Positions 2,313 to 43,774 of a stretch of DNA of 64,000 nucleotides are shown in pieces. The stretch's first letter is position 1; each line of letters starts with the position of its first letter. The stretch spans positions 1 to 64,000 of the forward strand of contig QZKP01000031.1 in assembly GCA_003605055.1 (NCBI GenBank), in the 5' to 3' direction. The notes under the pieces were generated by a model. It was given only the letters and a program-made list of their open reading frames with translations, was not told where the DNA came from and made no database searches. The DNA is from Desulfarculus sp. Lineage in GTDB: Bacteria; Desulfobacterota; Desulfarculia; Desulfarculales; Desulfarculaceae. Position numbers and translations under genes: made by a program.

Positions 2313-2324
2313 ACTCTCCAGGCA

Positions 2325-6520: not shown

Positions 6521-6658
6521 GACCTCGCTCCTGTTGCCTAGGCCTTTTTTGGTCCTATGCCCCGGCAGATGCCGTATTTGCCGCTCTTAGGCGCACAATA
6601 ACAATACAGTACGTACTGCGCCCCGGTCAGGCGGACCAAGAGCGTCTGCCCGGACGAC

Positions 6659-9622: not shown

Positions 9623-9625
9623 TAG

Positions 9626-11371: not shown

Positions 11372-11402
11372 CGCTCGTACCGCCCTTTGGTATTGCGCCC
11401 GG

Positions 11403-16552: not shown

Positions 16553-16556
16553 ATCC

Positions 16557-17591
16557 TTACCAGTAATGTTGCCGGTACTTCCGGTAATAGTCCACCGTGG
16601 CCGCCAGACCCTCGGCCAGCCCCACGCTGGGCTCCCAGCCCACCAGGCGCCTCAGCTTGCTTATGTCTGCATAGAAGTCCCCTGGCTCGCTGGCCTTTCG
16701 CTCGGCAGAAAACTCCGCGAATTCCCATTGGCCCTTGCCCACGGCGGCGATGATCAGCTTGACCAGCTCCAACAAGGAGACCGGTTGCCCGTTGCCCAGG
16801 TTAATGACCTCCCCCCTGGCCTCTGGGCAGATTGCGCAGAGAAGCATGGCCTGGACGCAATCATCAATGTATAAAAAATCCCGCAGTGTACTGCCGTCGC
16901 CGAAAACCCGTATGGTCTGGCCCTCCATGGCCTGGCGGATGAACCAGTTGGCCACCCCGAAATGATGGCTCTTCATCTGAGAGCGCGGCCCGTAGATGTT
17001 GGTCAGCCTCAGCAGCACGCAGGCCATCCCGTGTACGTCATGATAGACTTTCATGATCTTTTCCGCGGCCAAGTTGCTTATCTCGTAGATCCCGCGGGGG
17101 TTGCTGGGCGCCTCCTCGCCGACGGGCAGCTTTTGGACCGGTCCGTACTGCCCTCTGGTCCCGGTCTTAATCACCTTGGCGGCGAGGTTGTTGTGCCGGC
17201 AGGCCTCCATGAGCACCGCAGTGCCCTTGATGGTGTACTCCAGGTCCGGGTAAGGGTCCCTGAGCCCCAAGACGTGGCTAACCTGGCCGGCGCAGTGAAA
17301 GATGAAGTCCTGGCCTTGGACCAGATCATTGACAATCCTGGCCTGGGTGACGTTGGCCTGGATGATTTGGAACTGGTCGTAATGCGGATGCAGGTTGAAG
17401 GGGTTGCCTCCGTAATCAGGAATGAGCGCATCCAGCACCGTAACCGAGGCCCCCAAATCCAGTAGGCGCAGGGCCAGGCTGCTGCCGATGAAGCCCAGCC
17501 CGCCCGTCAACAAGACCCGCTTGCCCCTGAAGGACCTGGCCAGCGTCTCTGCCACCTGCGCCTCGGTGCCGCTTGATTTCTGCTCAACCAA
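16557..17591 (-). CDS. NAD-dependent epimerase/dehydratase
   Basis: VLLTGGLGFIGSSLALRLLDLGASVTVLDAL Rossmann motif, NIYGPRSQMK. Confidence 0.88.
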   Translation of the reverse strand: MVEQKSSGTEAQVAETLARSFRGKRVLLTGGLGFIGSSLALRLLDLGASVTVLDALIPDYGGNPFNLHPHYDQFQIIQANVTQARIVNDLVQGQDFIFHCAGQVSHVLGLRDPYPDLEYTIKGTAVLMEACRHNNLAAKVIKTGTRGQYGPVQKLPVGEEAPSNPRGIYEISNLAAEKIMKVYHDVHGMACVLLRLTNIYGPRSQMKSHHFGVANWFIRQAMEGQTIRVFGDGSTLRDFLYIDDCVQAMLLCAICPEARGEVINLGNGQPVSLLELVKLIIAAVGKGQWEFAEFSAERKASEPGDFYADISKLRRLVGWEPSVGLAEGLAATVDYYRKYRQHYW

Positions 17592-17879
17592 TTTTGATAA
17601 TATCCCACCGAAACCTAAAACGAAAAGCGGGACGGAACCACGCCAGCGACCGCCTTTTAATGAAAATTTTATAACAACAAGGTGTTAACTGTACCGCGCC
17701 CGGTTGCTTGGATACGAGTTTGTCATCTAGCGGCTTCCTCGGTCAAGTAGGTTTGCCCGTGCTGGACAGGGCCTACGGGTCAAGCCTGATCTCGGAGAAA
17801 CGACGTGTCGGCTTTGGGCGGCTGCCCGAAGCTTGTTCGCCAGCCGCAGTCCAGGCTCGGAGCAGGCGGTGGCTTCTTC

Positions 17880-18361
17880 TCTATATCCTCAAGTTCTCCG
17901 TCGGTATGCGGCTGAAAGACCTGGCCGCGGCCCGGGTTGGCAATGGATACCGGCGGCTGCGTGTACTACCGAGACAAGAAGGCCGGGCGAGCAGAACCAA
18001 GCGGGTTTACTGTATCTACATGAAGGAGGGCCTGACCATGCACCGTAAGCGCTCCAGGCGCGGGGTCGGGGCCGCCCAGAGGGTAAGCCAACCCAGGCCC
18101 AGGAGGAGTAATGTGAGTTGTCCTATGGACTTTGTGCCCGATCATCTTTATTCTGGGCATCAGGCCCGGGCTGCAGGCGATATGGGGACAAGGGGAGCGA
18201 ATCTACCTCGAGAGCCTTGGATCAATGGGCCGTTTATAACAAGGTGGAGCTTGATTTCGGTCGACCTGGCAAGGCCTACGGATAACGCATTCATCGAGTC
18301 ATTTAACGGACGCCTCCGCGGAGAGCGTCTGAACGAGAATTGTTTTGTGCCCGTTAATTAG
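17880..18361 (+). pseudogene. Degraded IS3-family OrfB transposase relic
   Basis: LKDLAAARVGNGYRRLRVLPRQEG..TKRVYCIYMKEGLTMHRKRSRR, MDFVPDHLYSG, then after an apparent internal deletion and a frameshift WDQWAVYNKVELDFGRPGK / PTDNAFIESFNGRLRGERLNENCF. Confidence 0.8.
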
Positions 18362-18449: not shown

Positions 18450-21400
18450 ATGGGCGCGAGGCTGCTAAAGACGGCTGTATACGGAGCATCGTTCGGCGGT
18501 GTGCTGGTTGGACTGATCTGCATTATCGTTGGCATTTGCCTGAGCCCAGACTTCGCGGCAAAGATTTTCTCCCCTGACAATCGCTTGGCCAATGAAACTA
18601 TAACCATGACAAGCGTGAGCCGTCAGCTTCTCTTCTGGGGAGGCTCTCTGCTGTTTTTGCTGAGCCTGCACGCGGTTTTTTTCGCAAAAAATATTTTACG
18701 TATTGGAACCGAATTCTTCTCAAATGAAGTCAGATCAACAGCCGGTAAAATGATAATAGCCAGCGCGGTCATTTCGGTGATAATCGGGGTCATTAATGTC
18801 ATCCAACGTGTGCAGTATCAGACCAAAGTAACATCTTGGGAAAAAAGTTTTCTGGCCGAACTTTATGTGCGGATGCAGCATATTATCTCTACTGACTTAT
18901 CATTTTTACCTCTACAGGTATGGGTCGTGCTGAGCGGTATTTCCCTATTGACTTTAATTTCGGTGCGCTGTTTGAGAACCAAAGGAGTGAACTGCCGCTT
19001 TTTAACCGGTCCGGACACCGCTACCCTCAAGCCGACATTAACCTTGATGGTCCTGATGGCCCTGCTCGCAGCGGGGCTAGTCTCCCTCTCCTTCTTCAGC
19101 CTAACCGCACGCGGCTATCTGGTGCTGGCCCTGATACTCAGCCCCTGGGCCTACCTGGTGTGGCGGGTCCGTGAAAGGAATTATTACGATTTATTTATTT
19201 ATTTGGGGATAGTAGCCCTCTACGCAATCATAAACGTGGGTCTGATCTCGGGGGAGCAATTTGCTTACCACGACACCAGGCAGGGCTACCACGTCCCGTT
19301 TTTGATTTTTTATGATTGGATCAGGCACGGGTACGCGATCGGCTGGAACTCCTTTTTAAATGGGGGGGAGCCGCTTTACTTGTATTCCAATTTTTATCTG
19401 TGGGCTGAACTTGCCGTTCTCTCACTTGTCAACCAACTATTTAATCTGCCCCCCAACAATCTAATAAATATTTTCTTCGCTTACATATTCATTACTTATT
19501 TCACCGTAGGCCTCTTTTTCTTCTCAATTGTCTTTCGCAGCCGCGCCACTTCTTTCTTTCCCGCCATCGTGCTGGCCTTTGGTGGTATGACTCTCGCTAA
19601 CCTGGGGCAGTTCCAATTGGCCGGAGTCTATTTTGTGCCGCTGGTGGCCATGGCCATTTATATGTTTTACTCCCGCCGGCAAAGGCTTTTCTTGGGCTGG
19701 GCGGTTTTCTTTTTCTGCGTTTCGGCTAATCATTATCTGCCTGGTTATATTCTATATTTTTTCGCTGCGTTCTTGCTCTCTATGGCCGCGGTCAAATTTT
19801 TCTTCAACAAAAAGTATGCAGTATCCAAGCTAAAAATACCCCATAGCGCATTATGGGCATGTATCATCACGATTCTTTCTTTGAGTGCTCTAGCGACCTT
19901 CCTTTATCTGTTCGCTGAGTTGAGAGATGAGTATGTTTCACCGGTTCGCGGTTACGCCGGCCTGACCGAAACTCACGTTGGCCCACAGGCATCGGTAAAT
20001 ATTGATTTTGCGAAATACGCGCATCTCTTTTATGTTTCCGGCAAAGATATTGCAGACCTAAGTTATTCTCACGGCATACATTACGTAGGCTTGTTCACCG
20101 TGCTCCTGGCCATTTTATCCCTTCTGAGGAGCCGAAGTATTCTTTACTCTGGATGGGTTATTACTTTTGTCCTGCTGGTAATTATCGGCCTGGGGGAAAT
20201 CACACCTCTATGGTTGATCTTAAAAAAATACACGGTGGTGTTTAACTTAAGGCACAGCTTCTTTTTTGGAACGGCGATTGCCTTTGCTGTCGTATTTGTG
20301 GCCGCATTCGGGTTCAGAAAGTATATGACTTCCTCTACCCTGCAAAAAGTTTCCATATTTTTGATCGTAATCACCGGCGTGGCATTTTCCATCATTAACA
20401 CCAAAGTTACCTCAATGCCTCCAGAGCCCATTGAAAAATATGTTTATCCAGGCTACCGGAATTTTTTGTCTTCCAAGTCGTACACAAACTTGCCTTTGGA
20501 CTTTACACCGGTCTTCACCCGGGAGGCCGTGGTGACTCACCACGATGGAAACTTCATATTCTTTGTAAGGAAAAAATATATCCACGAGCTGGAAAATAAC
20601 CCGCCCTATCTGATGGGCCCGCTGTTTTTCTTCCTGGACCCGGTTCGCGACCAGGACGCCATCGCCGGAAAAATGAGGAGCGAAAAGGGCTTGGTCAATG
20701 AAGAACGCATTGAATTACTGGCAAATCCTGCGATGCTGATCCAGGGGCAAAGGTATTTTAAAAAAATAATCAGCGGATTGGGAGGCAACGCTCCCATCGT
20801 CGGAGTTGCCCGTGAGGATGAGGACCCTGTCGGGGGTGGCGAATCCGTGATGGTGATGCCGCCGCGAGAATGCCGATTCGAGGTCACCTTCGATGATGTC
20901 TTAAGGCTCCGCGGAGAAGACATGCAATTTTCAGTTGCGGCTAAAAGCAAGAACCAGACATGGAATGCGATTGGTATCGCCGTCTTTAGTAAAAACGAAA
21001 GAGAAAATGAGGAAAAAAATGACATATCGGATTGGAGGTTAATAGGGGTCAGTCATTACCACAACAGCGGTAAATGGGAACAATTGAATGCGATCGCCAC
21101 CGTTCCTTTACTGGCGGCTCAAATCAAGTTGCGTATTTATGTCACTATCGGTGCTGATTTCGCGGTTTATTTTAAAGATCCCATAGTCAAGTTGTTCGAT
21201 TCCGCAGTGGGCAGAACTGCGATGGCTGGTTCGGCCATCAAAATCCTGCCAGCCGATGACCCCAACCGCGTGATAGTGGAGGTGGATGCCCCCAAGGACC
21301 TATGGCTGGTGCGCAGAGAAAACTGGCATCGTGGATGGAAGGCCAAAGTTGATGGCCAGGCGGCCCCGATTAAGGAGGTGCTGGGCACTTTTCAGGGATT

Positions 21401-21575
21401 ACTGCTTCCCAAGGGTAAGCACGTGGTGGAGTATTCTTTCAATTCTTACTACCCCTGGTTGATGTGGCTGCACATAGTGGCCACCTTGCTGGGTTACCTC
21501 CTGTTCTTCTGGTTTGTGTTGCATTGCGGCGACCTGAAGCACGACCCCGAGGCGGAAGGAGCTACAAACGGGTAG
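18450..21575 (+). CDS. Large multi-TM YfhO-like membrane protein with extra N-terminal TM module and C-terminal soluble domain
   Basis: 1041-aa ORF; IGWNSFLNGGEPLYLYSNFYLW; C-term WLVRRENWHRGWKAKVDGQAAPIKEVLGTFQGLLLPKGKHVVEYSFNSYYPWL typical of YfhO-like proteins. Confidence 0.8.
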   Translation: MGARLLKTAVYGASFGGVLVGLICIIVGICLSPDFAAKIFSPDNRLANETITMTSVSRQLLFWGGSLLFLLSLHAVFFAKNILRIGTEFFSNEVRSTAGKMIIASAVISVIIGVINVIQRVQYQTKVTSWEKSFLAELYVRMQHIISTDLSFLPLQVWVVLSGISLLTLISVRCLRTKGVNCRFLTGPDTATLKPTLTLMVLMALLAAGLVSLSFFSLTARGYLVLALILSPWAYLVWRVRERNYYDLFIYLGIVALYAIINVGLISGEQFAYHDTRQGYHVPFLIFYDWIRHGYAIGWNSFLNGGEPLYLYSNFYLWAELAVLSLVNQLFNLPPNNLINIFFAYIFITYFTVGLFFFSIVFRSRATSFFPAIVLAFGGMTLANLGQFQLAGVYFVPLVAMAIYMFYSRRQRLFLGWAVFFFCVSANHYLPGYILYFFAAFLLSMAAVKFFFNKKYAVSKLKIPHSALWACIITILSLSALATFLYLFAELRDEYVSPVRGYAGLTETHVGPQASVNIDFAKYAHLFYVSGKDIADLSYSHGIHYVGLFTVLLAILSLLRSRSILYSGWVITFVLLVIIGLGEITPLWLILKKYTVVFNLRHSFFFGTAIAFAVVFVAAFGFRKYMTSSTLQKVSIFLIVITGVAFSIINTKVTSMPPEPIEKYVYPGYRNFLSSKSYTNLPLDFTPVFTREAVVTHHDGNFIFFVRKKYIHELENNPPYLMGPLFFFLDPVRDQDAIAGKMRSEKGLVNEERIELLANPAMLIQGQRYFKKIISGLGGNAPIVGVAREDEDPVGGGESVMVMPPRECRFEVTFDDVLRLRGEDMQFSVAAKSKNQTWNAIGIAVFSKNERENEEKNDISDWRLIGVSHYHNSGKWEQLNAIATVPLLAAQIKLRIYVTIGADFAVYFKDPIVKLFDSAVGRTAMAGSAIKILPADDPNRVIVEVDAPKDLWLVRRENWHRGWKAKVDGQAAPIKEVLGTFQGLLLPKGKHVVEYSFNSYYPWLMWLHIVATLLGYLLFFWFVLHCGDLKHDPEAEGATNG

Positions 21576-21642: not shown

Positions 21643-22689
21643 ATGATGCAATTAGACGAGGTTCCGGGGGGCAGACTGGCCCGGTTTTCGCTCCAGGAGT
21701 TTACGGAGAAAGCAACAGAGGTGAGGCGGTACAGGCCATTTGATCGTTCCCAACTGGAACTAAAACCATTAGCCCAACGCACCCACGACATTAACATCAA
21801 CGCGATAATGCCCTTACAGCCCGTTTCCGACCTGACACTGCCAGCGCGGACCCATGTGGAGCAAGTAGCCCAGGCCATTAAGCGAGCCAAAGGCCAAGGC
21901 GCGGCCTCGGTGTTGATGATCGGCGCCCACGTCATACGCGCCGGCGTGCAGCACTACCTCATAGACCTCATGCGGGCCGGCTTCATCACCTGTCTGGCAA
22001 TGAACGGGGCCGGCATGATTCACGACTTTGAGTTGGCCCTGGTGGGGGCCACCACGGAGAGCGTGCCCCGCTACATAAGGACCGGCGAGTTCGGGATGTG
22101 GCAAGAGACCGGCCAGATCAATGATATTATCAACCAAGCCTACGCCGATGACCTCCACTCCGGTTTGGGGACCTGTGTGGGGCGGGTTCTGCATGAAGGC
22201 GACTTCGCCCACAAGGACATCAGCGTTCTGGCGGAGGCCTACCGTCTGGGTACGCTGGTCACGGTGCATGTCGCCATTGGTTGCGACATCATACATCAGC
22301 ATCCCAACTGCGACGGGGCAGCCACAGGGGCGTTGACCTACAATGACTTCCTGCTGTTCACCCAGGAGCTGCAGCGCTTAGAGGGCGGGGTGCTGATGAA
22401 CTTCGGCAGCGCGGTTATGGCTCCGGAGGTCTATCTCAAGGCCCTGAGCATGGTGCGCAACCTGGCGGCGCAGGAGGGGCAGACCATCGGCCGCTTCACC
22501 AACTTGGTGTGCGACCTGCGCGAGATGCCTGCTGATTTCACCCGCGAACCATCCAAGGGCAGCCCTGCCTATTTCTTCCGCCCCTGGAAGACCATGTTGG
22601 TGCGCACCGTGGCCGACGGCGGCGTCAGCTACTATGTCAAGGGGCCGCATCACCAGACCATCCCCGCCCTGTGGACGGCCTTACAATAG
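21643..22689 (+). CDS. Deoxyhypusine synthase-like family protein
   Basis: VLMIGAHVIRAGVQHYLIDLMRAGFITCLAMNGAGMIHDFELAL, CDIIHQHPNCDGAATGALTYNDF, AYFFRPWKTMLVRTVADGGVSYYVKGPHHQTIPAL. Confidence 0.8.
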   Translation: MMQLDEVPGGRLARFSLQEFTEKATEVRRYRPFDRSQLELKPLAQRTHDININAIMPLQPVSDLTLPARTHVEQVAQAIKRAKGQGAASVLMIGAHVIRAGVQHYLIDLMRAGFITCLAMNGAGMIHDFELALVGATTESVPRYIRTGEFGMWQETGQINDIINQAYADDLHSGLGTCVGRVLHEGDFAHKDISVLAEAYRLGTLVTVHVAIGCDIIHQHPNCDGAATGALTYNDFLLFTQELQRLEGGVLMNFGSAVMAPEVYLKALSMVRNLAAQEGQTIGRFTNLVCDLREMPADFTREPSKGSPAYFFRPWKTMLVRTVADGGVSYYVKGPHHQTIPALWTALQ

Positions 22690-22696
22690 GTAGGCC

Positions 22697-23185
22697 ATGA
22701 AGATAAGGGACCTGCACGAATTGAGCGAAACCCTGGCCCAACTCAAGGCCGAGGGCAAAAAGGTCGGCCTGTGCCACGGGTGTTTTGATTTGATGCATCC
22801 GGGCCACATAAAGCACCTGCAGGCCGCCAAGAGCCAATGCGACGTGTTGGTGGTCACCCTGACGCCGGACCAGTGGGTGGACAAGGGGCCGAACCGCCCG
22901 GTTTTCAATCAACTCCTGCGCGCCGAAAGCCTGGCCGCGTTGGAATGTGTGGATTTCGTGGCGATCAATAAATGGCCCACCGCCGAAGACACCCTGCGGT
23001 TGCTGCGGCCGGACCTTTACTTCAAGGGCCAGGAGTTTGCAACTCTGCGAGATAAAACCGGCAAGATTCAGAAGGAGGCGTGCGTTTTGAAGGAGATTGG
23101 TACGGAGCTTCGCTGCACCCAGGAAATCGTATTCTCCTCCTCCAAGCTGCTGAACAAGTACTTCCTCAAAAAAGAGCCTAGGTAG
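22697..23185 (+). CDS. HldE C-domain/RfaE2-like cytidylyltransferase-family nucleotidyltransferase
   Basis: VGLCHGCFDLMHPGHIKHLQAAKSQCDVLVVTLTPD with intact HxGH (HPGH). Confidence 0.9.
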   Translation: MKIRDLHELSETLAQLKAEGKKVGLCHGCFDLMHPGHIKHLQAAKSQCDVLVVTLTPDQWVDKGPNRPVFNQLLRAESLAALECVDFVAINKWPTAEDTLRLLRPDLYFKGQEFATLRDKTGKIQKEACVLKEIGTELRCTQEIVFSSSKLLNKYFLKKEPR

Positions 23186-23195
23186 CCTGGACGTC

Positions 23196-24734
23196 ATGAA
23201 TACCAAGGCCGAGTCCAAGATTTTCCTGCTTGATGACCTGGTGGAGAAAGTCCACCAACTGCAGGAGCAGGGCAAGGTGGTGGTGCAGAGCCACGGGGTC
23301 TGGGACCTGATCCACCCCGGCAACCTCAGCCACCTGCAAGAGGCGTCGCGCCAGGGGGACGTGCTGGTGGTCACAGTCATCCGGGACCAACACGTGCGCC
23401 GCGGACCAGGCCGCCCTGTTTTTCCCGAGAAAAGCCGGGCTCAGAGCGTGGCCGCCCTGGAGGTGGTGGACTACGTAGCCATTGTTGACGATGAGATACC
23501 CTTTGAGTGCGTCAAATGGATTCGGCCCGACGTGTTCGCCAAGGGCAAGAACCACGCCGAACGGGACGCGGCGGCGGACCAGGGGATATTCGAGGAAGAG
23601 AAGGAGCTGGGGTTCGCCAAGATACGGACCTATTTTACGGACGGGTTCTCTTTCAGTTCCTCGGATATCGCTCAGCGCCTGCTGAATTTTTACCCTGAAG
23701 AAACCAAGCGATTCTTGGTTGAGTTCGGCAAGAAGTACTCCTTTGAAGACATCCGCCAGCGGCTGGACGGCCTGCGTGACCTCAAGCTGCTCCTGATCGG
23801 CGACACCATTGTGGACGAATACTGTTATTGCGGCTCGCTGGAAAAGGCCAGTAAGAGCCATGTGGTGGTCTCCAAATTCCTGGAAGAAGAGGCCTTTGCC
23901 GGCGGCGTGTTGGCGGTGGCCAACCACCTGGCCGGCATCTTGGATCAAGTGAACCTGGTGACCATGGTGGGGCACGATAAACTGGGAGAAGATTTCGTCC
24001 CCGCCAACCTCAGCCAAGCCGTGCGGGCCCAATATTTCGTGCGCCACGACGGCCCCACAGTGGTTAAGCGGCGCTATCTGCATCAATATCTAAACCAGAA
24101 ACTATTTGAGATAAATTACATCAACGACAACTCTATCAGCCCGGAGTTGGAAGAAAAAATCGTCGCCTTCTTGGAAGATTGCGTGGCCGATTTTGACGCC
24201 GTGGTCGTAACCGACTTTGGGCACGGCCTGATGAGCGAAAGAATAGTTAGTACAATTCAAAAACAGGCCAAAGTATGCGTAGTAAACACCCAGACCAACG
24301 GTGCCAACAGCGGCTTCAACTTTATTACCAGATATTCGCCTGATTTTGTTTGCCTGGATGAGAGGGAGGCCCGCCTGGCCACCCAGGAAAAGCATCTGGC
24401 CATGGACCAGGTGCTGAAAAAGCTGTTTGCCGTCTTGGGCTGCAAAGCCGCTATCATAACCCTGGGGCGGCAAGGCTCCATCTCCATGGGCCAGACGCAA
24501 AAAGTCTTGCACACTCCGATTTTTTCCACCAAGGTTGTGGATACCATAGGCGCCGGTGACGCTCTCTTTGCCTTCGTGGCGCCTTGCCTGGTGCGCGGAT
24601 TCCCCCTGGACTTGGTTTCCTTTGTGGGCAACGCGGTGGGCGCCTTGGCCGTGCAGATCGTGGGTAACAAGGCTCCGGTGACCAAGTTCGACCTGTATCA
24701 GTTGATGTATTCTCTATTGCGCATCAGCGAATAG
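23196..24734 (+). CDS. Bifunctional nucleotidyltransferase (N)-PfkB sugar kinase (C), inverted relative to HldE
   Basis: N-term SHGVWDLIHPGNLSHLQ...SEK/FAKGKNHAERD; C-term LLLIGDTIVDEYCYC...FAGGVLAVANHLAG...VDTIGAGDALFAF. Confidence 0.88.
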   Translation: MNTKAESKIFLLDDLVEKVHQLQEQGKVVVQSHGVWDLIHPGNLSHLQEASRQGDVLVVTVIRDQHVRRGPGRPVFPEKSRAQSVAALEVVDYVAIVDDEIPFECVKWIRPDVFAKGKNHAERDAAADQGIFEEEKELGFAKIRTYFTDGFSFSSSDIAQRLLNFYPEETKRFLVEFGKKYSFEDIRQRLDGLRDLKLLLIGDTIVDEYCYCGSLEKASKSHVVVSKFLEEEAFAGGVLAVANHLAGILDQVNLVTMVGHDKLGEDFVPANLSQAVRAQYFVRHDGPTVVKRRYLHQYLNQKLFEINYINDNSISPELEEKIVAFLEDCVADFDAVVVTDFGHGLMSERIVSTIQKQAKVCVVNTQTNGANSGFNFITRYSPDFVCLDEREARLATQEKHLAMDQVLKKLFAVLGCKAAIITLGRQGSISMGQTQKVLHTPIFSTKVVDTIGAGDALFAFVAPCLVRGFPLDLVSFVGNAVGALAVQIVGNKAPVTKFDLYQLMYSLLRISE

Positions 24735-24819
24735 GCACGCTGCCGTATGGGTCATCCCGATAGGGTCCTCTGGCCAGGAGGCAGTGGCGAGCCAGCACAA
24801 CTTTGAGGAGTCGCAGACG

Positions 24820-25815
24820 ATGGGATACAGAAAGGTTTTCGTTACCGGCGGCGCTGGCTACGTTGGTTCGGTGCTGGTTCCCAAGCTGCTGGCCGCCGGC
24901 TACGGGGTCAAGGTGATAGATCTCTACCTTTACGGCGAGGGCGTTCTGGATTCCTCAAAGGAAAACCCCGAGCTGAAGGAGGTCAAGGGCGACATCCGCG
25001 ACCGGGGCCTGCTGGAGAGAGAAATCCAGGGCTATGACACCGTGATTCACCTGGCCTGCATCTCCAATGACCCCAGCTATGAGCTGGACCCGGAGCTGGG
25101 CAAGTCCATCAACTATGATGCCTTCGTTTCCTTGGTGGAGGTGGCCAAAAAGGCGGGCGTGCGGCGCTTCATCTATGCCTCCAGCTCCAGCGTATACGGG
25201 ATCAAGGAAGGCCAAGACGTGACCGAGGACCTGCCTTTGGAGCCCTTGACCGACTATTCCAAATACAAAGCCAAGTGCGAGGAGGTGCTCTTGGCTGCGG
25301 CGGCCGATGACTTCATCGTCACCATCATCCGCCCCTCCACGGTCTGCGGATACGCGCCCCGGCTGCGCCTGGACCTGACGGTGAACATCCTGACCAACCA
25401 TGCCATCAACAAGGGGAAGATCACCGTGTTCGGCGGCGAGCAGATGAGGCCCAACCTGCACATAGAAGACATGGCCGAGGTGTACCTCTTCCTGCTGGCG
25501 CAGCCCGAGGAAAAGATTCAAAAGAAAATTTACAACGTCGGCTATCAAAACTATAAGGTCAAGGAGATCGCCCAGATCATCAACAAAGCCCTGGGGGGGG
25601 GCATTCCCATCGAGGTGACCCCCACCGAAGACATCCGCTCCTATCACGTTTCCTCGCGCAGGATAAAAGATGAGTTGGGCTTCGAGGCCAAGCGCACTAT
25701 CGACGAGGCGGTGCTGGACTTGAAGCGGGCCTTTGAGCAGGGCAAGATACCCGACCCGCTGGCGGACATGAGGTATTTCAACATCAAGACCATGCAGGCC
25801 ATCAAATTAAAGTAA
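24820..25815 (+). CDS. NAD-dependent epimerase/dehydratase (SDR)
   Basis: MGYRKVFVTGGAGYVGSVLVPKLLAAGYGVKVIDLYLYG, YASSSSVYGIKEG, YSKYKAKCE; start moved from 24784. Confidence 0.9.
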   Translation: MGYRKVFVTGGAGYVGSVLVPKLLAAGYGVKVIDLYLYGEGVLDSSKENPELKEVKGDIRDRGLLEREIQGYDTVIHLACISNDPSYELDPELGKSINYDAFVSLVEVAKKAGVRRFIYASSSSVYGIKEGQDVTEDLPLEPLTDYSKYKAKCEEVLLAAAADDFIVTIIRPSTVCGYAPRLRLDLTVNILTNHAINKGKITVFGGEQMRPNLHIEDMAEVYLFLLAQPEEKIQKKIYNVGYQNYKVKEIAQIINKALGGGIPIEVTPTEDIRSYHVSSRRIKDELGFEAKRTIDEAVLDLKRAFEQGKIPDPLADMRYFNIKTMQAIKLK

Positions 25816-25838
25816 GGCGCGCGCTGAGAGCAGACAGC

Positions 25839-26939
25839 ATGCAGGTTAAATATTCTTATCTGCAAGAGCAGTTCGCGGATTACCCGGCCATCTTGGAGCG
25901 GATCGCAGAGGTGGTCAGGGCCGGCGACTACACCCTGGGCCAGGCCGTGGCCGAGTTCGAGCAGTGCTTCGCCGCCTGCCTGGGGGCCCATTACGCCGTG
26001 GGCGTCAACTCCGGCACCGACGCCTTGTTCCTGGCGCTGAAGGCGGCGGGTATCGGCCCGGGCGACGAGGTGATCACCGCGCCCAACACCTTTATAGCCA
26101 CCATCGGAGCCATCAACGCCAGCGGCGCCAGGCCGGTATTCATGGACATCACCGACGAGTTCGTCATCGACCCGGCCTTGATCGAGCAGGCCATCACCCC
26201 GCGCACCAAGGCCATCATGCCGGTGCACTACGCCGGGGTCTGCGCGGACATGGACCAGATACTGCCCCTGGCCCAGCAAAAGGGTCTGACGGTGGTCGAG
26301 GACGCCTGCCAGGCCATCGGCGCCAGCCTGCAGGGCCAGAAGGCGGGCACCTTTGGCCTGGCCGGAGGCTTCAGCCTGCACCCCCTGAAGAACCTCAATG
26401 TTTGGGGCGACGCGGGGGTCATCGTCACCGATGACCTTCAGCTCCGAGACAGACTGGTTCTTTTGCGCAACCACGGCCTGAAAAACCGGGACGAGGTGGA
26501 GATCTTCGGCTACAACAGCCGCCTGGACACCATCCAGGCGGCGGTGGGCCTGCACCTGATCGGCCAGTTGGAGTGGATCACCGAGACCAGGATCAAATGG
26601 GCCCAGCGTTTTGACCAGGCCCTGGCTAAGCTGGCGCCCCAGGTGAAGGTCCCGGCCCGCCGGCCGCAAAAGCGCTACGTGCATCATCTTTACATGTTCC
26701 AGGCCCAGCGCCGGGACGCGTTGTTGGCCTTTTTACAGGCCAGCGGCATAGAGGCCAAGGTTCACTATCCCGTCCCCTTGCACCTGCAACGTTGCGCGGC
26801 CCCCCTGGGGTACCGCGAAGGTGATTTCCCGGTCGCCGAGGCTCAGGCTCGTTCCATAATCACTCTGCCGGTGCACCAGCACCTGCGCGAAGAGCAGGTG
26901 GAGTACATGATCGCCAAGATCAGCGAGTTTTACAGTTAA
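25839..26939 (+). CDS. DegT/DnrJ/EryC1/StrS aminotransferase (copy 1 of tandem pair)
   Basis: GVNSGTDALFLALKAAGIGPGDEVITAPNTF, EDACQAIGA, FSLHPLKNLNVWGDAGVIVT. Confidence 0.93.
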   Translation: MQVKYSYLQEQFADYPAILERIAEVVRAGDYTLGQAVAEFEQCFAACLGAHYAVGVNSGTDALFLALKAAGIGPGDEVITAPNTFIATIGAINASGARPVFMDITDEFVIDPALIEQAITPRTKAIMPVHYAGVCADMDQILPLAQQKGLTVVEDACQAIGASLQGQKAGTFGLAGGFSLHPLKNLNVWGDAGVIVTDDLQLRDRLVLLRNHGLKNRDEVEIFGYNSRLDTIQAAVGLHLIGQLEWITETRIKWAQRFDQALAKLAPQVKVPARRPQKRYVHHLYMFQAQRRDALLAFLQASGIEAKVHYPVPLHLQRCAAPLGYREGDFPVAEAQARSIITLPVHQHLREEQVEYMIAKISEFYS

Positions 26940-26944
26940 ACCCT

Positions 26945-28048
26945 ATGCGGGTGCCCTACCTAGACCTGCCTAGTCAATTCGCGGACCCGGAGTTGCACTC
27001 TGCCCTGCAGGCGCAGTTGGCCGCCTGCTCCTTTGTCCTGGGCCCGGAGGTGGAGCGCTTTGAGGCCGCCTTCGCCGATCTCTGCGGGGCGGCCTATGCC
27101 CTGGGACTCAACTCAGGGACCGACGCCATCTTCTTGGCCCTCAGGGCCCTGGGGGTGGGGCCGGGCGACGAGGTGATCACCGCGCCCAACAGTTTCGTGG
27201 CCACCGCCGGCGCCATCGCCGCCGCGGGCGCCCGGCCGGTGTTCGTGGACGTGGGCCCGGACTACAACCTGGACCCCGAGCTGCTGCCGGCGGCCATCAC
27301 CTCGCGCAGCAAAGCGATCCTGCCGGTGCACCTCACGGGCAAGCTGGCCGACATGCCGCGCATCATGGAAATAGCCAAGCGCCATGGCCTGCCGGTGGTG
27401 GAGGACGCGGCCCAGGCGGTGCGGGCCGAGCTGCAGGGCCGCCGGGCCGGGGCCTGGGGAGCGGCCGGCTGCTTCAGCCTGCATCCGCTGAAAAACCTCA
27501 ACGTGGCCGGCGACGGCGGCATGCTCACCACCAACGACCCCGAGCTTTACGCGGCCGTCAAGAAACTGCGCAACCACGGCTTGCGCAATCGCGACGAGGT
27601 GGAGTTCTTCGGTTTCAACAGCCGCCTGGACAACCTGCAGGCCGTGGTGGGCCTGCATCAGTTGGGCAAGCTGGAGGAGGTGACCGCCCGGCGGCGGGCC
27701 AACGCCGCTCTCTATGACCAACTGCTCGGCGACTTGGCGCCGCAGGTAGTCGTCCCCCCCCGGGACCCGGAGCACTTCCAGGTCTTCCACACCTACGTGG
27801 TCCAGGTAGAGCGGCGGGAAGAGCTACGGGAGCACCTGGCCCAGCAAGGGGTGGACTCCAAGATTCACTATCCAATCCCCATTCACCTGCAACGGCCCTG
27901 CCGCGAGTTGGGACACCAGGAGGGCGACTTCCCTGTATGCGAGAACCAGGCTTGCCGCATACTCACCCTGCCGGTGCACCAGCATCTGCGGCCCGCGCAG
28001 GTTAGATACGTGGCCGACCAGATCGCGCGTTTCTACCGGGTGGGCTAA
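26945..28048 (+). CDS. DegT/DnrJ/EryC1/StrS aminotransferase (copy 2 of tandem pair)
   Basis: GLNSGTDAIFLALRALGVGPGDEVITAPNSF, EDAAQAVRA, FSLHPLKNLNVAGDGGMLTT. Confidence 0.93.
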   Translation: MRVPYLDLPSQFADPELHSALQAQLAACSFVLGPEVERFEAAFADLCGAAYALGLNSGTDAIFLALRALGVGPGDEVITAPNSFVATAGAIAAAGARPVFVDVGPDYNLDPELLPAAITSRSKAILPVHLTGKLADMPRIMEIAKRHGLPVVEDAAQAVRAELQGRRAGAWGAAGCFSLHPLKNLNVAGDGGMLTTNDPELYAAVKKLRNHGLRNRDEVEFFGFNSRLDNLQAVVGLHQLGKLEEVTARRRANAALYDQLLGDLAPQVVVPPRDPEHFQVFHTYVVQVERREELREHLAQQGVDSKIHYPIPIHLQRPCRELGHQEGDFPVCENQACRILTLPVHQHLRPAQVRYVADQIARFYRVG

Positions 28049-28051
28049 ATT

Positions 28052-29041
28052 ATGCCCCAGCTAAGCGACATACCGCCGCAGGACCGCCGCCGCCTCTGGG
28101 AGACTATGCTCCTGATCCGCCGCTTCGAGGAGCACATCGTGGACGTATACGGCCAGCAGGAGATGCAGAGCCCGGTGCACCTGTACATCGGCCAGGAGGC
28201 GGTGGCCGCCGGGGTCTGCCTGCACCTGCGGCCGGAGGATTACCTGTTTTCCACCCACCGCAGCCACGGCCACTGCCTGGCCAAGGGCGCCGACGTTTTC
28301 AGTTTGTACGCCGAGTTCTACGGGCGCGCCGCCGGCTGCTGCCGGGGCAAAGGCGGCTCCATGCATCCCTGCGCCCCAGAGGTGGGCATCTTGGGGACCA
28401 CGGCCATCGTGGGCGGGGGCATTCCCCTGGCCACTGGCGCGGCCCTGGCCTCCAAGCTGCTGGGGCAGGGCAGGGTGGCGGTTACGCTCTTCGGCGACGG
28501 GGCCAGCGAGGAGGGGGCCTTTCACGAAAGCCTGAACTTCGCGGCCCTCAAGGCCCTGCCGGTGGTGTTCGTCTGCGAAAACAACTTCTACGCCACCGCC
28601 AGCCCCATCCACCAGCGCCAACCCCACGACGACATCTTCCGCCACGCGGCCGGCTACGGCATCCCCGCTGCGCAGGTGGACGGCAACGACGCGGCAGCAG
28701 TGTACTTCGCCGCCCGGGAGGCCGTACAACGGGCCCGCCGGGGAGGAGGCCCCAGCCTGATCGAGGCGCGCACCTACCGCTGGAAGGGGCATGTAGGACC
28801 ATCCTGCGACTGGGAGAACGGCTGCCGCCCCAAGCAGGAACTGGAGCAGTGGATGGACCGCTGCCCCTTGGAGCGCTTCACCCAGCGGCTGTTGCAGAGC
28901 GGTGATTTGACCGAGCAGGACATAAGGGGCACACTAGAGAGGACAGACGTCATGTTGGCCCGGGAGCTGGAGCGGGCCAAGCATAGTCCACCTCCCGCGT
29001 CCAGTGAAGTTTGGCGCCACGTTTTCCACGAGACGAAGTAG
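28052..29041 (+). CDS. TPP-dependent 2-oxoacid dehydrogenase E1 component, alpha subunit-like
   Basis: RRFEEHIVDVY, THRSHGHCLAKGAD, GKGGSMH, FGDGASEEGAFHESLNFAALKALPVVFVCENNFYA. Confidence 0.93.
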   Translation: MPQLSDIPPQDRRRLWETMLLIRRFEEHIVDVYGQQEMQSPVHLYIGQEAVAAGVCLHLRPEDYLFSTHRSHGHCLAKGADVFSLYAEFYGRAAGCCRGKGGSMHPCAPEVGILGTTAIVGGGIPLATGAALASKLLGQGRVAVTLFGDGASEEGAFHESLNFAALKALPVVFVCENNFYATASPIHQRQPHDDIFRHAAGYGIPAAQVDGNDAAAVYFAAREAVQRARRGGGPSLIEARTYRWKGHVGPSCDWENGCRPKQELEQWMDRCPLERFTQRLLQSGDLTEQDIRGTLERTDVMLARELERAKHSPPPASSEVWRHVFHETK

Positions 29042-29044
29042 CCC

Positions 29045-30088
29045 ATGCCCTGGACCAAGATTTTCAGCAATCAGGCGGAGTTCGATCTAGCCTTGGGCGG
29101 CCAAGGCCTGCGGGCCTTATCATTCCGGGAAGCCCTGGTGGAGGCCCAGCGTTTTCTGCTGCAGGATGATCCCCGGGTGCTGCTGATGGGCGAGGGCGTG
29201 GACGACCCGGGGGCCATCTTCGGCAGCACCGCCGGCCTGGCCCAGAGCTTCGGCAAGGACCGGGTGATGGATGTTCCCCTGGCCGAAAACGGGATGACCG
29301 GTGTGGCCATCGGAGCGGCCCTGGCCGGCCTGCGGCCCATCTTCATCCACATGCGCAACGACTTCCTGCCCATGTGCATGGATCAGCTCATAAACCACGC
29401 CGCCAAATGGAGCTACATGACCGGGGGCCGGGTCAACGTCCCCCTGGTGGTGCGCAGCATCGTGGGCCGGGGGTGGGGCTCCGCCGCCCAGCACTCGCAG
29501 GCCCTGCACGGCCTGTTCCTGCACGTGCCAGGGCTGAAGATCGTGGCCCCGGCCACGCCCTATGACGCCAAGGGGCTGTTGATCGCGGCCAGCCGCGACG
29601 GCAATCCAGTGATGTTCTTCGAGCACCGCTGGACCTTCGACTATGTTGGTTACGTGCCCGCGGAGGCCTACCAGGTCCCTCTGGATCAGGGTGTGCGCCG
29701 CCGCCAGGGAAGCGACGCCACGGTGGTGGCCATCGGCTGGATGGTCAACGAGGCCCTGAAGGCGGCCGCGGCCCTGGAAGCCGAGGGCGTGTCGTTGGAG
29801 ATAATAGATCCCCGCACCCTGCTGCCCCTGGACATGCCGCTCATCCTGGAGTCCGTGGCCAAGACCGGCCGGCTGGTGATCGCCGACACCGCCTGCCACA
29901 CCGGCGGGACCGGGGCCGAGATCGCCTGCCGGGTGGCCGAGTGGTCCCCCGGGGCGCTCAAGGCGCCGGTGGTGCGGGTGGACTTTCCCGATGCGCCCAC
30001 CCCCGCCAGCACGGCGCTGGAAAAAACCTACTACCCCGACGCCGAGGCCATTGCCCAGGCAGTGCACCGCACTCTGCGGGAAGGGTGA
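29045..30088 (+). CDS. 2-oxoacid dehydrogenase E1 component, beta subunit-like
   Basis: REALVEAQRFLLQDDPRVLLMGEGVDDPGAIFGST, VPLAENGMTGVAIGAALAGLRPI, EIIDPRTLLPLD. Confidence 0.92.
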   Translation: MPWTKIFSNQAEFDLALGGQGLRALSFREALVEAQRFLLQDDPRVLLMGEGVDDPGAIFGSTAGLAQSFGKDRVMDVPLAENGMTGVAIGAALAGLRPIFIHMRNDFLPMCMDQLINHAAKWSYMTGGRVNVPLVVRSIVGRGWGSAAQHSQALHGLFLHVPGLKIVAPATPYDAKGLLIAASRDGNPVMFFEHRWTFDYVGYVPAEAYQVPLDQGVRRRQGSDATVVAIGWMVNEALKAAAALEAEGVSLEIIDPRTLLPLDMPLILESVAKTGRLVIADTACHTGGTGAEIACRVAEWSPGALKAPVVRVDFPDAPTPASTALEKTYYPDAEAIAQAVHRTLREG

Positions 30089-30089
30089 G

Positions 30090-30866
30090 ATGCCGCCGAT
30101 CCAAGTCAGCGTGATAATGCCGGCTCTCAACGAGCAGAGGAATATTCTCAAGGCCCTAGGCAACACCTTGCAGGCCTTCAGCGACTATGGCATCAGCGGC
30201 GAGGTCGTCGTTATCAACGACGGCAGCAGTGACCGGACTGGAGAGTTGGTACAGGAGATCGCGGAGGTGGAAGAGCGGGTGCGGACGATCACCCACAGTG
30301 CCCCTCAGGGCGTGGGCGCCTCCTTCTGGGAAGGGATAGAGGCGGCCCGCGGCGAGGTGGTGGTGATGATGCCCGGGGACAATGAGAACGACCCCTGGGA
30401 GACCCTGCGCTACCTGGGACTGCTGGACCACGTGGACATCGTGATCCCCTTCGTGTTCAACAAGGAGGTGCGCTCCCTTTTCCGTAACGCTTTGTCCTTC
30501 GCGTACCGTTTCATCATCAACACCACCTTCGCCGTGAACTTCAATTACACCAACGGCACCGTGCTCTACCGCCGCTCCATACTCAAAGGCCTGAATTTCC
30601 GCAGTCAGGGCTTCTTTTTTCAGACCGACATCCTGGTGCGCAGCGTTAAGGCCGGCTTTTTGTTCGCCGAGGTCCCCTACCGCCTGGCCCAACGCCGAGA
30701 GGGTGTATCCAAGGCTGTCACTTTTCCCTCCTTGTTTAAGGTGTGTCAGGGCTATCTGCGTCTGTGCCGGGACATCTACTTCAACCAGCAGACGGGCTTC
30801 AGCGGCGAGCCGGAGGAGGACTCTCAGACCCGCAAGCGCAAAAACGACAAGAGCACCATGTGCTGA
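30090..30866 (+). CDS. Family 2 glycosyltransferase
   Basis: MPPIQVSVIMPALNEQRNILKALGNTLQAFSDYGISGEVVVINDGSSDRT; start moved to ATG at 30090. Confidence 0.9.
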   Translation: MPPIQVSVIMPALNEQRNILKALGNTLQAFSDYGISGEVVVINDGSSDRTGELVQEIAEVEERVRTITHSAPQGVGASFWEGIEAARGEVVVMMPGDNENDPWETLRYLGLLDHVDIVIPFVFNKEVRSLFRNALSFAYRFIINTTFAVNFNYTNGTVLYRRSILKGLNFRSQGFFFQTDILVRSVKAGFLFAEVPYRLAQRREGVSKAVTFPSLFKVCQGYLRLCRDIYFNQQTGFSGEPEEDSQTRKRKNDKSTMC

Positions 30867-30880
30867 GGAGAGAGCGGGCC

Positions 30881-31984
30881 ATGCCCGAGCTGATTTTGGA
30901 TGGACACAAACTGGCCTGGCACCGGGAGCGGGTGGAGGCCTGGCAGCGCGGCGAGCGGATCGCGCCCATAACCATCGACTGCGCGCTCACCCGCCGCTGC
31001 ACCTATCGTTGCGTCTATTGCTATGGCCAACTCCAGGCCAACGACGAAAAGAAAATGACCCGGGAGGTGATCTTCCGCTTCCTGGACGACGCCGCCGAGA
31101 TCGGGGTCAAGGCCATAAGCTTCGTCTCCGACGGCGAGAGCACCTGCAGCCCCCATTTCTACGACGCACTCCTGCGCGGCCGGGCCAATGGCCTGGACAT
31201 GGCCGTGGGCACCAACGGCTACCTGCTCAGGGACGAGCGTCTGGGGGAGACGCTGCCCGCGCTCACCTATCTGCGTTTCAACATCTCCGCCGCTCAGCGC
31301 GACCGCTACGCCGCCATCCACGGCTGCGCGCCCAAGTGCTACGACAAGGTGCTGGACACCGTGCGCGAGGCAGTGCGCATCAAGCGCCGACGCGGCCTGC
31401 CGGTGACCCTGGGTCTGCAGATGGTGCTGCTGCCCCAGTTTGAGGACCAGGTGCTGCCCCTGGCTCATTTGGGCAAGGAGTTGGGCGTGGACTACCTGGT
31501 AATCAAGCATTGCAGCGACGATGAGCAGGGCAGCCTGGGGGTGGATTACAGCGCCTATAGCTCGCTGGTGGAGACGCTGCGCCAGGCGGAGGCGGTCTCC
31601 GAAGGGGACTATCTGGTGCGGGCCAAATGGTCCAAGATCATGAGCCTGGGCCAGCGCAGCTACAGCCGCTGTTACGGCCCGCCCTTCATCATGCAGTTCT
31701 CCGGCTCCGGGCTGGTGGCGCCCTGCGGCATGCTCTTCAACCGCAAGTACAGCCGATATCACATAGGCAACATCGCCGAAACCTCCTTCAAGGGGCTGTG
31801 GCAAAGCGAACGCTATTGGGAGGTCATGGACCTGATCGCCTCTGAAAAGTTCGACGCGCGCACCATGTGCGGCTCGCTGTGCCTGCAGCACAAGGTCAAT
31901 GAATGCCTGTACAGTCTGCGTCAGGAAGGGGCCTGCCTGCCGCCGACGCAGGGCGAGCCTCCCCTGCATTGCAACTTCATCTGA
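30881..31984 (+). CDS. Radical SAM/SPASM-domain protein
   Basis: TIDCALTRRCTYRCVYCYGQ (CxxxCxxC); C-terminal Cys cluster CYGPPF...APCGMLFN...MCGSLCLQHKVNECLY; start moved to ATG at 30881. Confidence 0.9.
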   Translation: MPELILDGHKLAWHRERVEAWQRGERIAPITIDCALTRRCTYRCVYCYGQLQANDEKKMTREVIFRFLDDAAEIGVKAISFVSDGESTCSPHFYDALLRGRANGLDMAVGTNGYLLRDERLGETLPALTYLRFNISAAQRDRYAAIHGCAPKCYDKVLDTVREAVRIKRRRGLPVTLGLQMVLLPQFEDQVLPLAHLGKELGVDYLVIKHCSDDEQGSLGVDYSAYSSLVETLRQAEAVSEGDYLVRAKWSKIMSLGQRSYSRCYGPPFIMQFSGSGLVAPCGMLFNRKYSRYHIGNIAETSFKGLWQSERYWEVMDLIASEKFDARTMCGSLCLQHKVNECLYSLRQEGACLPPTQGEPPLHCNFI

Positions 31985-32008: not shown

Positions 32009-32530
32009 GTGACGGTTTTAATCTTGGGGCTAGTCATCTTCGGGCTGGCCATGCTGGTTCATCTGATCTGGTGGCGCATATCTCTGCCGCGGCGCCAGAC
32101 CAAGGCCCTGCTGGCCATTTTCCTGACGGCCACGGCGGCCTCGATACTGCTGCTGGCCCTGCTCACCCGGCTGGCACCGGAGTGGCAGGGGTACGGGCCC
32201 GATGATCTGTGGGAGTATCTACACATCGCCGAGATGGTCTTAGCCCTGGGCTTGGCCTACATCGTAACCTATTCGGCCCTGGAGGTGGACAGCCCCTCCC
32301 TGGTCATTGCCCTGGCCATCGCGGACCAGGGGACGCGCGGCCTGGCCGCCGAGGACCTGGCCCGGGCCATGAACGACGAGCGGCTGATCAGGCCGCGGGT
32401 GGAGGACCTGGTCCTGGACCAGATGGCCTTTTGGCAGGGAGAGCGCCTGCTGCTCACCCCCAAAGGACAAACCATGGCCCGGCTTTTTGCCTTCTATCGC
32501 CGTCTGCTGGGCAAGGGCCTGGGGGGCTAG
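32009..32530 (+). CDS. Small membrane protein with C-terminal winged-helix-like cytosolic domain, unknown function
   Basis: 173 aa, about 3 N-terminal hydrophobic helices, then ALAIADQGTRGLAAEDLARAMNDERLIRPRVEDLVLDQMAFWQGERLLLTPKGQ. Confidence 0.6.
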   Translation: MTVLILGLVIFGLAMLVHLIWWRISLPRRQTKALLAIFLTATAASILLLALLTRLAPEWQGYGPDDLWEYLHIAEMVLALGLAYIVTYSALEVDSPSLVIALAIADQGTRGLAAEDLARAMNDERLIRPRVEDLVLDQMAFWQGERLLLTPKGQTMARLFAFYRRLLGKGLGG

Positions 32531-32535: not shown

Positions 32536-33060
32536 ATGAGCGGGCTGATGACCCTGCTGGCGCCGATCGCCGCCCTGGCCCTGAACATCGTGTGCCAGGT
32601 GGCCGTCTGCCGCCTGGCGCCCCGGGCCTCGCTTCTGCGCTCGCTGGTCTTGGGCTTCGGCCTGGGAGCGATGTTTTTGCTGCTCTACCACGCGGCGGCC
32701 TGGGCATTGGCGGGCCAGCCCCTGGCCCAGGCGGCCGGGTTGCTGATAGCCAACCTGGCCACCTACGGAGCCCTGGGCTACTGCTACTTTCATTTTGTGA
32801 ACCTGGGCGAGACCGCCCGCCGTATACGCCTGGTGCGGGAGCTGCACCAGGCCCCGGCCGGGCTGACCTATCCGGAAATCCTCCTGCGCTACAACGCCGC
32901 CCAGATTACCGACCTGCGCATGCAAAGACTGCTGAAAACCAGGCAGGTGGCCCTCCGGCAGGGGCGCTATTTCATCGACAGACCTTTATTTCTCGCAATA
33001 TCCAAACTCATGGTTGCTCTTAAGGTCGTGGTGTTGGGCAAAAGAAGCGAGTTTGACTAG
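32536..33060 (+). CDS. Small membrane protein, unknown function, organisation similar to 32009..32530
   Basis: 174 aa, TM N-terminus; C-term LTYPEILLRYNAAQITDLRMQRLLKTRQVALRQGRYFI; start at ATG 32536. Confidence 0.6.
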   Translation: MSGLMTLLAPIAALALNIVCQVAVCRLAPRASLLRSLVLGFGLGAMFLLLYHAAAWALAGQPLAQAAGLLIANLATYGALGYCYFHFVNLGETARRIRLVRELHQAPAGLTYPEILLRYNAAQITDLRMQRLLKTRQVALRQGRYFIDRPLFLAISKLMVALKVVVLGKRSEFD

Positions 33061-33112
33061 CTCAAGTCCAAAAGCCGACAGCGCGCAGGCGGCCGGAATC
33101 TCCTCCCGTCGC

Positions 33113-39885: not shown

Positions 39886-40138
39886 CGGCCTCCTCGCGCC
39901 TGGGTCCTGGGGCCCTGCTCAAGGCAAGCGATTGTATCATAGCGCCGGCGTAGTTACTTGGCCAGCCCCGCGAGGCTGACCCAAGTGAAGTCCTCAAAAT
40001 GCCGCTTGAATTACCTTGGTGGCCGGGATAAATTGACTCTAAAATATCTCCGGCGCGGCCGGCGGGCTGTCCGGCCCTGGCGGATATGGTCTCAGCTTTT
40101 TTTATTTGCCTATTAGCAACCCTGGTCAGACCGGAATC

Positions 40139-42186: not shown

Positions 42187-42189
42187 CCG

Positions 42190-43752: not shown

Positions 43753-43774
43753 GCCCCTGCGGCGGGAGAGGAGC

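Follow-up and report, generated by a model that had tools for sequence, protein, structure and literature searches.

The closest published relative of the gene cassette described here is the phase I lipopolysaccharide (LPS) region of Coxiella burnetii, in which CBU0678, a reversed HldE with its nucleotidyltransferase (NT) domain preceding the kinase, is essential for full-length LPS (PMC5843353, PMC5423948). For avilamycin, paulomycin, everninomicin and kibdelomycin, it has been proposed that keto sugars are branched by pairs of E1-like proteins such as those of the cassette (PMC12247030, PMC4753412, PMC10338323). The cassette lies at 21643-31984 on the + strand of a 64,000-nucleotide stretch of Desulfarculus sp. 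DNA (positions 1 to 64,000 of contig QZKP01000031.1, assembly GCA_003605055.1), which is referred to as the window. At rather less than even confidence, it is proposed that the cassette makes a nucleotide-activated heptose and tailors it, for use in a surface glycan, to a sugar that is keto-derived, branched by a C2 unit and aminated. A preliminary description, made from the DNA alone, had suggested an unusual ADP- or CDP-activated sugar, perhaps branched or diamino; this fits the comparative evidence well, with the heptose-type core being the part that was missed.

The ten consecutive and closely spaced genes of that description were found in place as ten co-directional open reading frames (ORFs) on the + strand, with gaps of 7, 10, 49, 23, 5, 3, 3, 1 and 14 bp. 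These figures use the ATG at 30090 for the glycosyltransferase family 2 (GT2) gene and the ATG at 30881 for the radical SAM gene, the longest-ORF starts (29991 and 30743, respectively) having been judged worse. Families were assigned using Pfam and NCBIfam profiles with curated or equivalog cut-offs, which confirmed the earlier family calls: a protein like deoxyhypusine synthase (DHS), an HldE2-like NT, an NT-PfkB fusion, a short-chain dehydrogenase/reductase (SDR), two DegT proteins, E1 alpha and E1 beta subunits of a thiamine diphosphate (TPP) enzyme, a GT2 and a radical SAM/SPASM protein. The genes of the cassette are:

21643..22689, +, GSU2086-family protein (DHS / ArgZ-C-like NAD-binding fold) of the cassette-type clade, putative NAD-dependent epimerase/oxidoreductase of a heptose pathway (NF052581, structural model, tree)
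22697..23185, +, separate HldE2-like NT with intact HPGH (TIGR02199, 99 bits against a cut-off of 181.5)
23196..24734, +, reversed HldE with an N-terminal NT domain (degenerate HPGN) and a C-terminal PfkB kinase (intact GAGD) (domains, motifs)
24784..25815, +, SDR (Epimerase), putative nucleoside diphosphate (NDP)-heptose C4 dehydrogenase (best PDB match 6vo6/6vo8)
25839..26939, +, DegT aminotransferase 1 (PF01041, 364 bits)
26945..28048, +, DegT aminotransferase 2 (PF01041, 378 bits)
28052..29041, +, E1 alpha-like TPP subunit (PF00676, 248 bits)
29045..30088, +, E1 beta-like TPP subunit (Transket_pyr and Transketolase_C)
30090..30866, +, GT2 resembling polyprenyl-phosphate sugar synthases (PF00535, 68 bits)
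30881..31984, +, radical SAM/SPASM enzyme of the rSAM2 group (PF04055 and PF13186)

The window cassette has no SIS (GmhA-like) gene, though most relatives carry one in the operon, and it also has no GmhB gene. Two SIS genes and a GmhB gene sit elsewhere in the host genome (3.6 Mb in 78 contigs, of which the window is contig 15), and the window copy must draw both functions from such genes. A promoter scan found no sigma-70-type site.

Relatives were collected from the neighbourhoods of 17 genomes with the NT-PfkB gene and from the best 80 of at least 564 DHS-like loci in named genomes, giving 89 distinct loci. The p-values reported below (Fisher) treat loci as independent; the loci are related, so independence is overstated. 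The NT-PfkB gene was present in 77/89 loci and a two-subunit TPP enzyme in 46/89, and in 68 of the 72 loci with both an NT-PfkB and a DHS-like gene the two were at most two genes apart. Two loci from Nitrospirae metagenome-assembled genomes, L050 and L051, have the order DHS-like, NT, NT-PfkB, SIS, SDR, DegT, DegT, E1 alpha, E1 beta, GT2, rSAM2, which is that of the window's ten genes with a single SIS gene added. Given this recurrence and the 68/72 proximity, the grouping of the genes is not due to chance. Co-occurrence across genomes, on which the preliminary description had staked its proposal, is thus what was observed when the comparison was run.

The hosts include Nitrospirota, Nitrospinota, Planctomycetota, Omnitrophota, Myxococcota, Acidobacteriota, Verrucomicrobiota and the archaeon Methanoperedens; as pieces or variants, the cassette occurs in about ten bacterial phyla and in methane-oxidising archaea. 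Within the window's own phylum, 18 of 395 genomes, including that of the window, have the NT-PfkB protein, and none of the 9 other genomes of its own family does, so that the cassette is patchy in distribution and probably mobile. The system is modular, with a core of SIS isomerase, reversed HldE (NT-PfkB) and GSU2086-family protein, to which GmhB is added in some loci. Three core-only loci (L047, L062 and L069) have SIS, NT-PfkB and GSU2086 genes followed by a gene for a conserved protein of ~800 aa, with no TPP enzyme or oxidiser; this protein is perhaps a transferase for the unmodified heptose.

The core is probably a heptose-type pathway, judging from the affinities of several independent families (SIS, kinase, NT, GmhB and SDR) that together point to a C7 sugar in the form of an NDP-heptose. 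The SIS protein, in the operon of 45/89 loci, is nearest to GmhA/phosphoheptose isomerases, the scores of the relatives being 92-98 bits against a GmhA cut-off of 209, which is not reached. The kinase half of the window fusion matches HldE best (158 bits, cut-off 521), with ribokinase at only 55 bits, and the two NT domains match HldE domain II best, at 99 and 86 bits, both below 181.5. None of the window proteins reached the equivalog cut-offs for HldE, pyruvate dehydrogenase (PDH) or PseC. GmhB is found in the operon in L021, L027, L041 and L091, passing its equivalog cut-off in L041 and L091, and in L027 the SIS, GmhB and NT-PfkB genes are side by side. The SDR had its best PDB match in 6vo6/6vo8 (138 bits over the full length; next best 99 bits), which we take to be Cj1427, a heptose C4-dehydrogenase. 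Cj1427 oxidises C4 of GDP-D-glycero-D-manno-heptose (PMC10680097, PMC7949155).

The kinase and NT pair that had been noted earlier as a means of sugar activation is indeed present; what had been overlooked is that the NT of the fusion is degenerate and that the separate NT is intact. In the fusion, the NT domain (34-160) precedes the PfkB domain (197-493), which is the reversed-HldE order of the CBU0678 type. The nucleotidyltransferase motif, HAGH in Escherichia coli HldE, reads HPGN in the window fusion and HPGH in the separate NT; the kinase retains its GAGD, so that active-site motifs are intact in both the separate NT and the kinase. The second His of HxGH was lacking from the fusion in 30 loci (HPGI, V, L, M or N), and 27 of these 30 have a separate NT gene, compared with 0/41 loci whose fusion motif is intact. 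Of the three exceptions, L025 has its NT fused to the DHS-like protein and L026 is cut short by the end of its contig, leaving only L077 without a ready explanation. On these sequences the simplest reading would be a duplication, after which the separate NT took over and the fused domain decayed.

The first gene of the cassette encodes a member of the family NF052581 (369 bits, cut-off 250), which is curated only as the GSU2086 family. Its predicted structure (pLDDT 80) matches LOR/SDH, AgrE/ArgZ and deoxyhypusine synthase in the PDB, and phylogenetic analysis separates a cassette-type clade (82 rows) from a canonical clade (22 rows) with 100/100 support. Of 118 Desulfobacterota genomes, 75 have a family member scoring above the cut-off. 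In 16/20 genomes the canonical gene comes immediately after a GmhA-like gene, and its other neighbours are unrelated housekeeping genes only. The window's genome also has such a canonical pair, on contig 54, and a genome of the same genus, G053, has two near-identical canonical genes (L144, C1; L145, C3), a GmhA-like neighbour being detected for one only.

Across the 118 Desulfobacterota genomes, each at least 90% complete, canonical GSU2086 and HldD were anticorrelated: 6 genomes had both, 22 HldD only, 67 GSU2086 only and 23 neither (p=9e-7; p=0.006 at family level). GmhB showed no anticorrelation with canonical GSU2086 in the same survey, and a role for GSU2086 as a GmhB replacement was rejected, GmhB being present in 67 of the 73 genomes with canonical GSU2086. 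The fold family of GSU2086 uses NAD, and the chemistry of HldD needs NAD(P). Taken together, the pairing with GmhA, the anticorrelation with HldD and the NAD-using fold suggest that canonical GSU2086 is a replacement for the epimerase HldD, and it is proposed that the cassette copy would carry out the matching step on the heptose of the cassette. In Geobacter, GSU2085 (HldE), GSU2086 and GSU2087 (GmhA) have the same defect in transposon sequencing (Tn-Seq) (PMC5585712), and beyond this Tn-Seq table our literature search on GSU2086 found nothing.

An amine-related role is the alternative for this protein. GSU2086 could instead be a scaffold, or a DHS-like or ornithine-cyclodeaminase-like enzyme acting on an amine or imine, with the cassette attaching an amine-containing group to the heptose; this concerns the GSU2086 gene alone and is compatible with a heptose core. 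The fold relatives (LOR/SDH, AgrE/ArgZ and deoxyhypusine synthase) speak for it, as does the motif RPWKT, which is invariant in cassette-type members and lacking in canonical ones. Set against it are the HldD anticorrelation and GmhA pairing seen in genomes without the cassette, and the Lys of RPWKT, which is not confidently aligned to the catalytic Lys of DHS. We regard this alternative as somewhat unlikely. Equivalence of cassette Lys316 and the catalytic Lys329 of DHS is not claimed here, as hhalign aligns the Trp of RPWKT to SWG and leaves the Lys unaligned, and canonical members do not have it. Genes of the deoxyhypusine synthase family also occur in Desulfobacterota (L147-L149 and L152), one of which, L147, passes the NF002006 and TIGR00321 cut-offs.

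The tailoring module consists of an oxidiser and a TPP enzyme, each of which comes in two forms, largely exclusive for the oxidiser and exclusive for the TPP enzyme, with further modifying enzymes in some loci. Among the 46 TPP loci, 15 have an SDR only, 24 have only a radical SAM enzyme of a second group, rSAM1, two have both and five neither (p=5e-6 for exclusivity). For the TPP enzyme the two forms are E1 alpha/beta and a split transketolase, which are mutually exclusive (p=1e-10). The oxidiser, SDR or rSAM1, and the TPP pair also travel together: over 55 loci, both are present in 36, neither in nine, and 10 are discordant (p=3e-4). The E1 subunits of the window score below the respective cut-offs (E1 alpha, TIGR03182, 316 against 394; E1 beta, NF006667, 296 against 321). 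No E2 or E3 was seen among the scanned genes of the window, bearing out the earlier observation of a TPP enzyme lacking them. The pair as a PDH remnant was rejected on the E1 scores, the lack of E2/E3 and the exclusivity with transketolase.

In the window the SDR is beside the E1-like pair, and such a pair beside a keto-sugar-forming enzyme is a feature of the aKADH2 sugar-branching enzymes. The addition of acetyl or hydroxyacetyl branches to keto sugars has been proposed for two families, the E1-like pairs, for which there is in vitro support in the case of KbDH, and the split transketolases; transamination of the branch can follow, as it does in kibdelomycin (PMC12247030, PMC4753412, PMC10338323). 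The linkage of oxidiser and TPP enzyme, and the proposal of C2 branching for both TPP types, lead to a model of NDP-heptose formation, oxidation, C2 branching and amination; by analogy with these enzymes, a branching role for the TPP enzyme has a chance only slightly short of even.

The DegT pair occurs only with the SDR (5/5 loci). The nearest solved structures are 3uwc, 7b0d, 2oga and QdtB for both proteins, with WbpE in addition for DegT 2. The rSAM2 signature HKLxWH...PxHxNF is conserved, and rSAM1 and rSAM2 have in common an N-terminal HKLxxHxxRV and a C-terminal HxNF. A model of rSAM2 of medium quality (pLDDT 66) has its best folds in DesII and BlsE, both of which act on nucleotide-linked sugars. 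For the GT2, the best NCBIfam matches were of the PgfS, PgaC and ArnC types, all below cut-off.

Gene content, conserved order, family membership, the motif loss with its takeover and the exclusivity patterns are read directly from the sequences; every reaction that follows, together with the reaction order, the nucleotide and the acceptor, we infer. A GmhA-like SIS protein, encoded in the operon of most relatives and elsewhere in this genome, would isomerise sedoheptulose 7-phosphate. The PfkB half of the reversed HldE would then phosphorylate the heptose and GmhB, from the operon in some relatives and from elsewhere here, would remove the C7 phosphate. The separate intact NT, standing in for the decayed domain of the fusion, would couple the heptose to a nucleotide. 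The GSU2086-family protein would perform an NAD-dependent step on the heptose, most likely an HldD-like C6 epimerisation, and the SDR (rSAM1 in other loci) would oxidise a ring hydroxyl, probably at C4. To this ketone the E1 alpha/beta pair, or the split transketolase of other loci, would add a two-carbon unit; the DegT pair may aminate the ring or the branch, and rSAM2 may make a further C-H modification. Finally, the GT2 would load the sugar onto polyprenyl phosphate, from which YfhO-like proteins may transfer it.

A number of observations weigh against this scheme. The scores of the SIS, kinase and NT proteins fall well short of the equivalog cut-offs, and the kinase is without the DPKG-type stretch of HldE, having a different conserved motif instead, so that a variant heptose or another sugar (phosphate) is possible. 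The six genomes with both canonical GSU2086 and HldD and the 23 with neither do not fit a simple replacement, and phylogeny accounts for part of the anticorrelation. In four loci the TPP pair occurs with neither SDR nor rSAM1, and in six an oxidiser occurs with no TPP pair. As rSAM2 is also found without DegT, the steps do not form one fixed chain. To our knowledge, no nucleotide sugar or glycan has been described for any of the hosts.

An unbranched amino-heptose would dispense with the branching step. The product would be an NDP 4-amino or 3-amino heptose, made as in septacidin or, if 3-amino, by the logic of desosamine, with DegT1 acting at C4, a DesII-like radical SAM step and DegT2 acting at C3; the TPP pair would only supply a dedicated ketose phosphate precursor. 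Transketolase-type enzymes do make sedoheptulose 7-phosphate, the rSAM2 model folds best on DesII at medium confidence, and both DegT proteins are nearest to 2oga/QdtB/WbpE, which we take to be 3-aminotransferases. However, few core-only loci have the TPP pair and its presence follows that of the oxidiser, a pattern not expected of a precursor supplier; most TPP loci are without DegT, and rSAM2 is not confined to DegT loci. On balance this product is unlikely.

The sugar may also not be a heptose, the SIS, PfkB and NT enzymes having been recruited to another sugar phosphate (a hexose, an octulose or a branched ketose that the TPP enzyme would produce), as in the lincosamide octose route, with only the folds being common to the ADP-heptose pathway. 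The low scores of the core enzymes and a substrate region of the kinase unlike that of HldE are consistent with this, and an unusual ketose formed by the TPP pair could serve as substrate of the SIS enzyme. It is nevertheless distinctly improbable in view of the equivalog-grade GmhB in the operons of L041 and L091, the SDR nearest to the Cj1427-type enzyme, the GSU2086 paralogue paired with GmhA-like isomerases and the existence of core-only loci without TPP. That the window holds an O-antigen locus which is degenerate or only loosely put together, its ordinary genes being neighbours by chance, would suit its setting, a polysaccharide region of mosaic make-up where GC content shifts and remnants of transposases occur. 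It is already contradicted by conservation, namely by intact frames, by the identical order of the ten genes in L050/L051, and by exclusive alternatives and NT takeover across many phyla, and is considered highly improbable. A wider form of the heptose proposal would be a pan-prokaryotic modular route to C2-branched (amino)heptoses. Its two unrelated oxidisers would be interchangeable, as would its two unrelated TPP carboligases, and its foundation would be the GSU2086 protein as a non-orthologous HldD replacement and the partner of GmhA in most Desulfobacterota genomes examined. In this full extent we hold it to be quite unlikely.

Outside the ten genes, three further features adjoin the cassette:

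18450..21575, +, large membrane protein like YfhO, upstream of the cassette; possibly a transferase dependent on polyprenyl-P-sugar (PF09586 below its cut-off, at 23.5 bits)
32009..32530, +, small predicted membrane protein of no family, 24 bp after the cassette (compare a protein of similar make-up after the GT2 gene in L025)
33014..35452, +, another membrane protein like YfhO, downstream of the cassette (PF09586, 44 bits against a cut-off of 28.5)

Large YfhO-related proteins were also found in L025/L049 and L089; a YfhO-type transferase was rejected as a core member, being present in only a few relatives. Just before the upstream YfhO-like gene, an ORF with a short integrase-core fragment (rve_3; 17708-18361, +) is a possible insertion sequence remnant at the edge of the cassette region. 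A second sugar-modification block lies at 2325-17591 on the - strand, comprising a transposase (2325-3353), RmlA-like, GDP-mannose-dehydratase-like, carbamoyltransferase, B12-binding radical SAM, DegT and hexapeptide acyltransferase genes, and the GC content drops to 42% at 1-4000. Downstream, at 40106-46941 (+), genes for a CBS-domain NTP transferase, an SDR, NeuB and a NeuC-like protein form a nonulosonate locus of the legionaminic/sialic-acid type; NeuB/NeuA-like genes also flank the cassettes of several relatives.

A keyword literature search found no published assignment for the gene set as a whole. To this extent the cassette is, as had been suggested, apparently undescribed; several of its parts are known from the Coxiella region and from the E1-like pairs of antibiotic pathways. 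Two parts may be new, namely the function of GSU2086 and the interchangeable branching module on a heptose. If correct, the former would give a function to a family that has so far only a curated name and would explain how genomes with GmhA and HldE but without HldD might make L,D-heptose. The latter would extend sugar branching by E1-like enzymes and split transketolases to a heptose backbone and to the surface glycans of Gram-negative bacteria and archaea, and would offer a natural set of interchangeable enzymes for the study of ketone-accepting carboligation. The cassette also bears on the as yet unassigned genes for E1-like proteins and reversed HldE in the Coxiella LPS region.

That region, CBU0674-CBU0693, resembles the cassette in its reversed HldE (CBU0678), phosphoheptose isomerase (CBU0674), SDRs (CBU0676/0677) and E1-like proteins (CBU0686/0692/0693) (PMC5843353, PMC5423948). 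Unlike the reading given here, published accounts link the region to virenose and give its E1 genes no role in sugar synthesis; in the Coxiella literature found, no account assigns these genes a sugar step or names the product of the reversed HldE. With the ADP-heptose pathway (GmhA, HldE, GmhB, HldD) the cassette shares the enzyme folds and, in some loci, an equivalog-grade GmhB. It differs from that pathway in its SIS, kinase and NT scores below cut-off, its reversed domain order and GSU2086 in place of HldD, and in having oxidation, TPP and PLP steps after the core. The GDP-heptose capsule pathway of Campylobacter jejuni (Cj1427) is similar in that the cassette SDR is nearest to what we take to be its NDP-heptose C4-dehydrogenase, whereas the scheme published for it is based on GDP and has a separate guanosyltransferase, and no TPP enzyme or reversed HldE was seen in it. 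The septacidin and desosamine pathways offer a likeness in NDP-heptose amination and in the DegT-radical SAM-DegT logic, respectively, and neither is known to include a TPP enzyme. The antibiotic sugar-branching pathways have in common with the cassette a two-subunit E1-like enzyme or split transketolase beside keto-sugar-forming enzymes, the 13 split transketolases noted in one study all being from Streptomycetes (PMC12247030). The cassette differs from them in its occurrence in Gram-negative bacteria and archaea, in its heptose-type core and in the interchangeability of its two TPP types.

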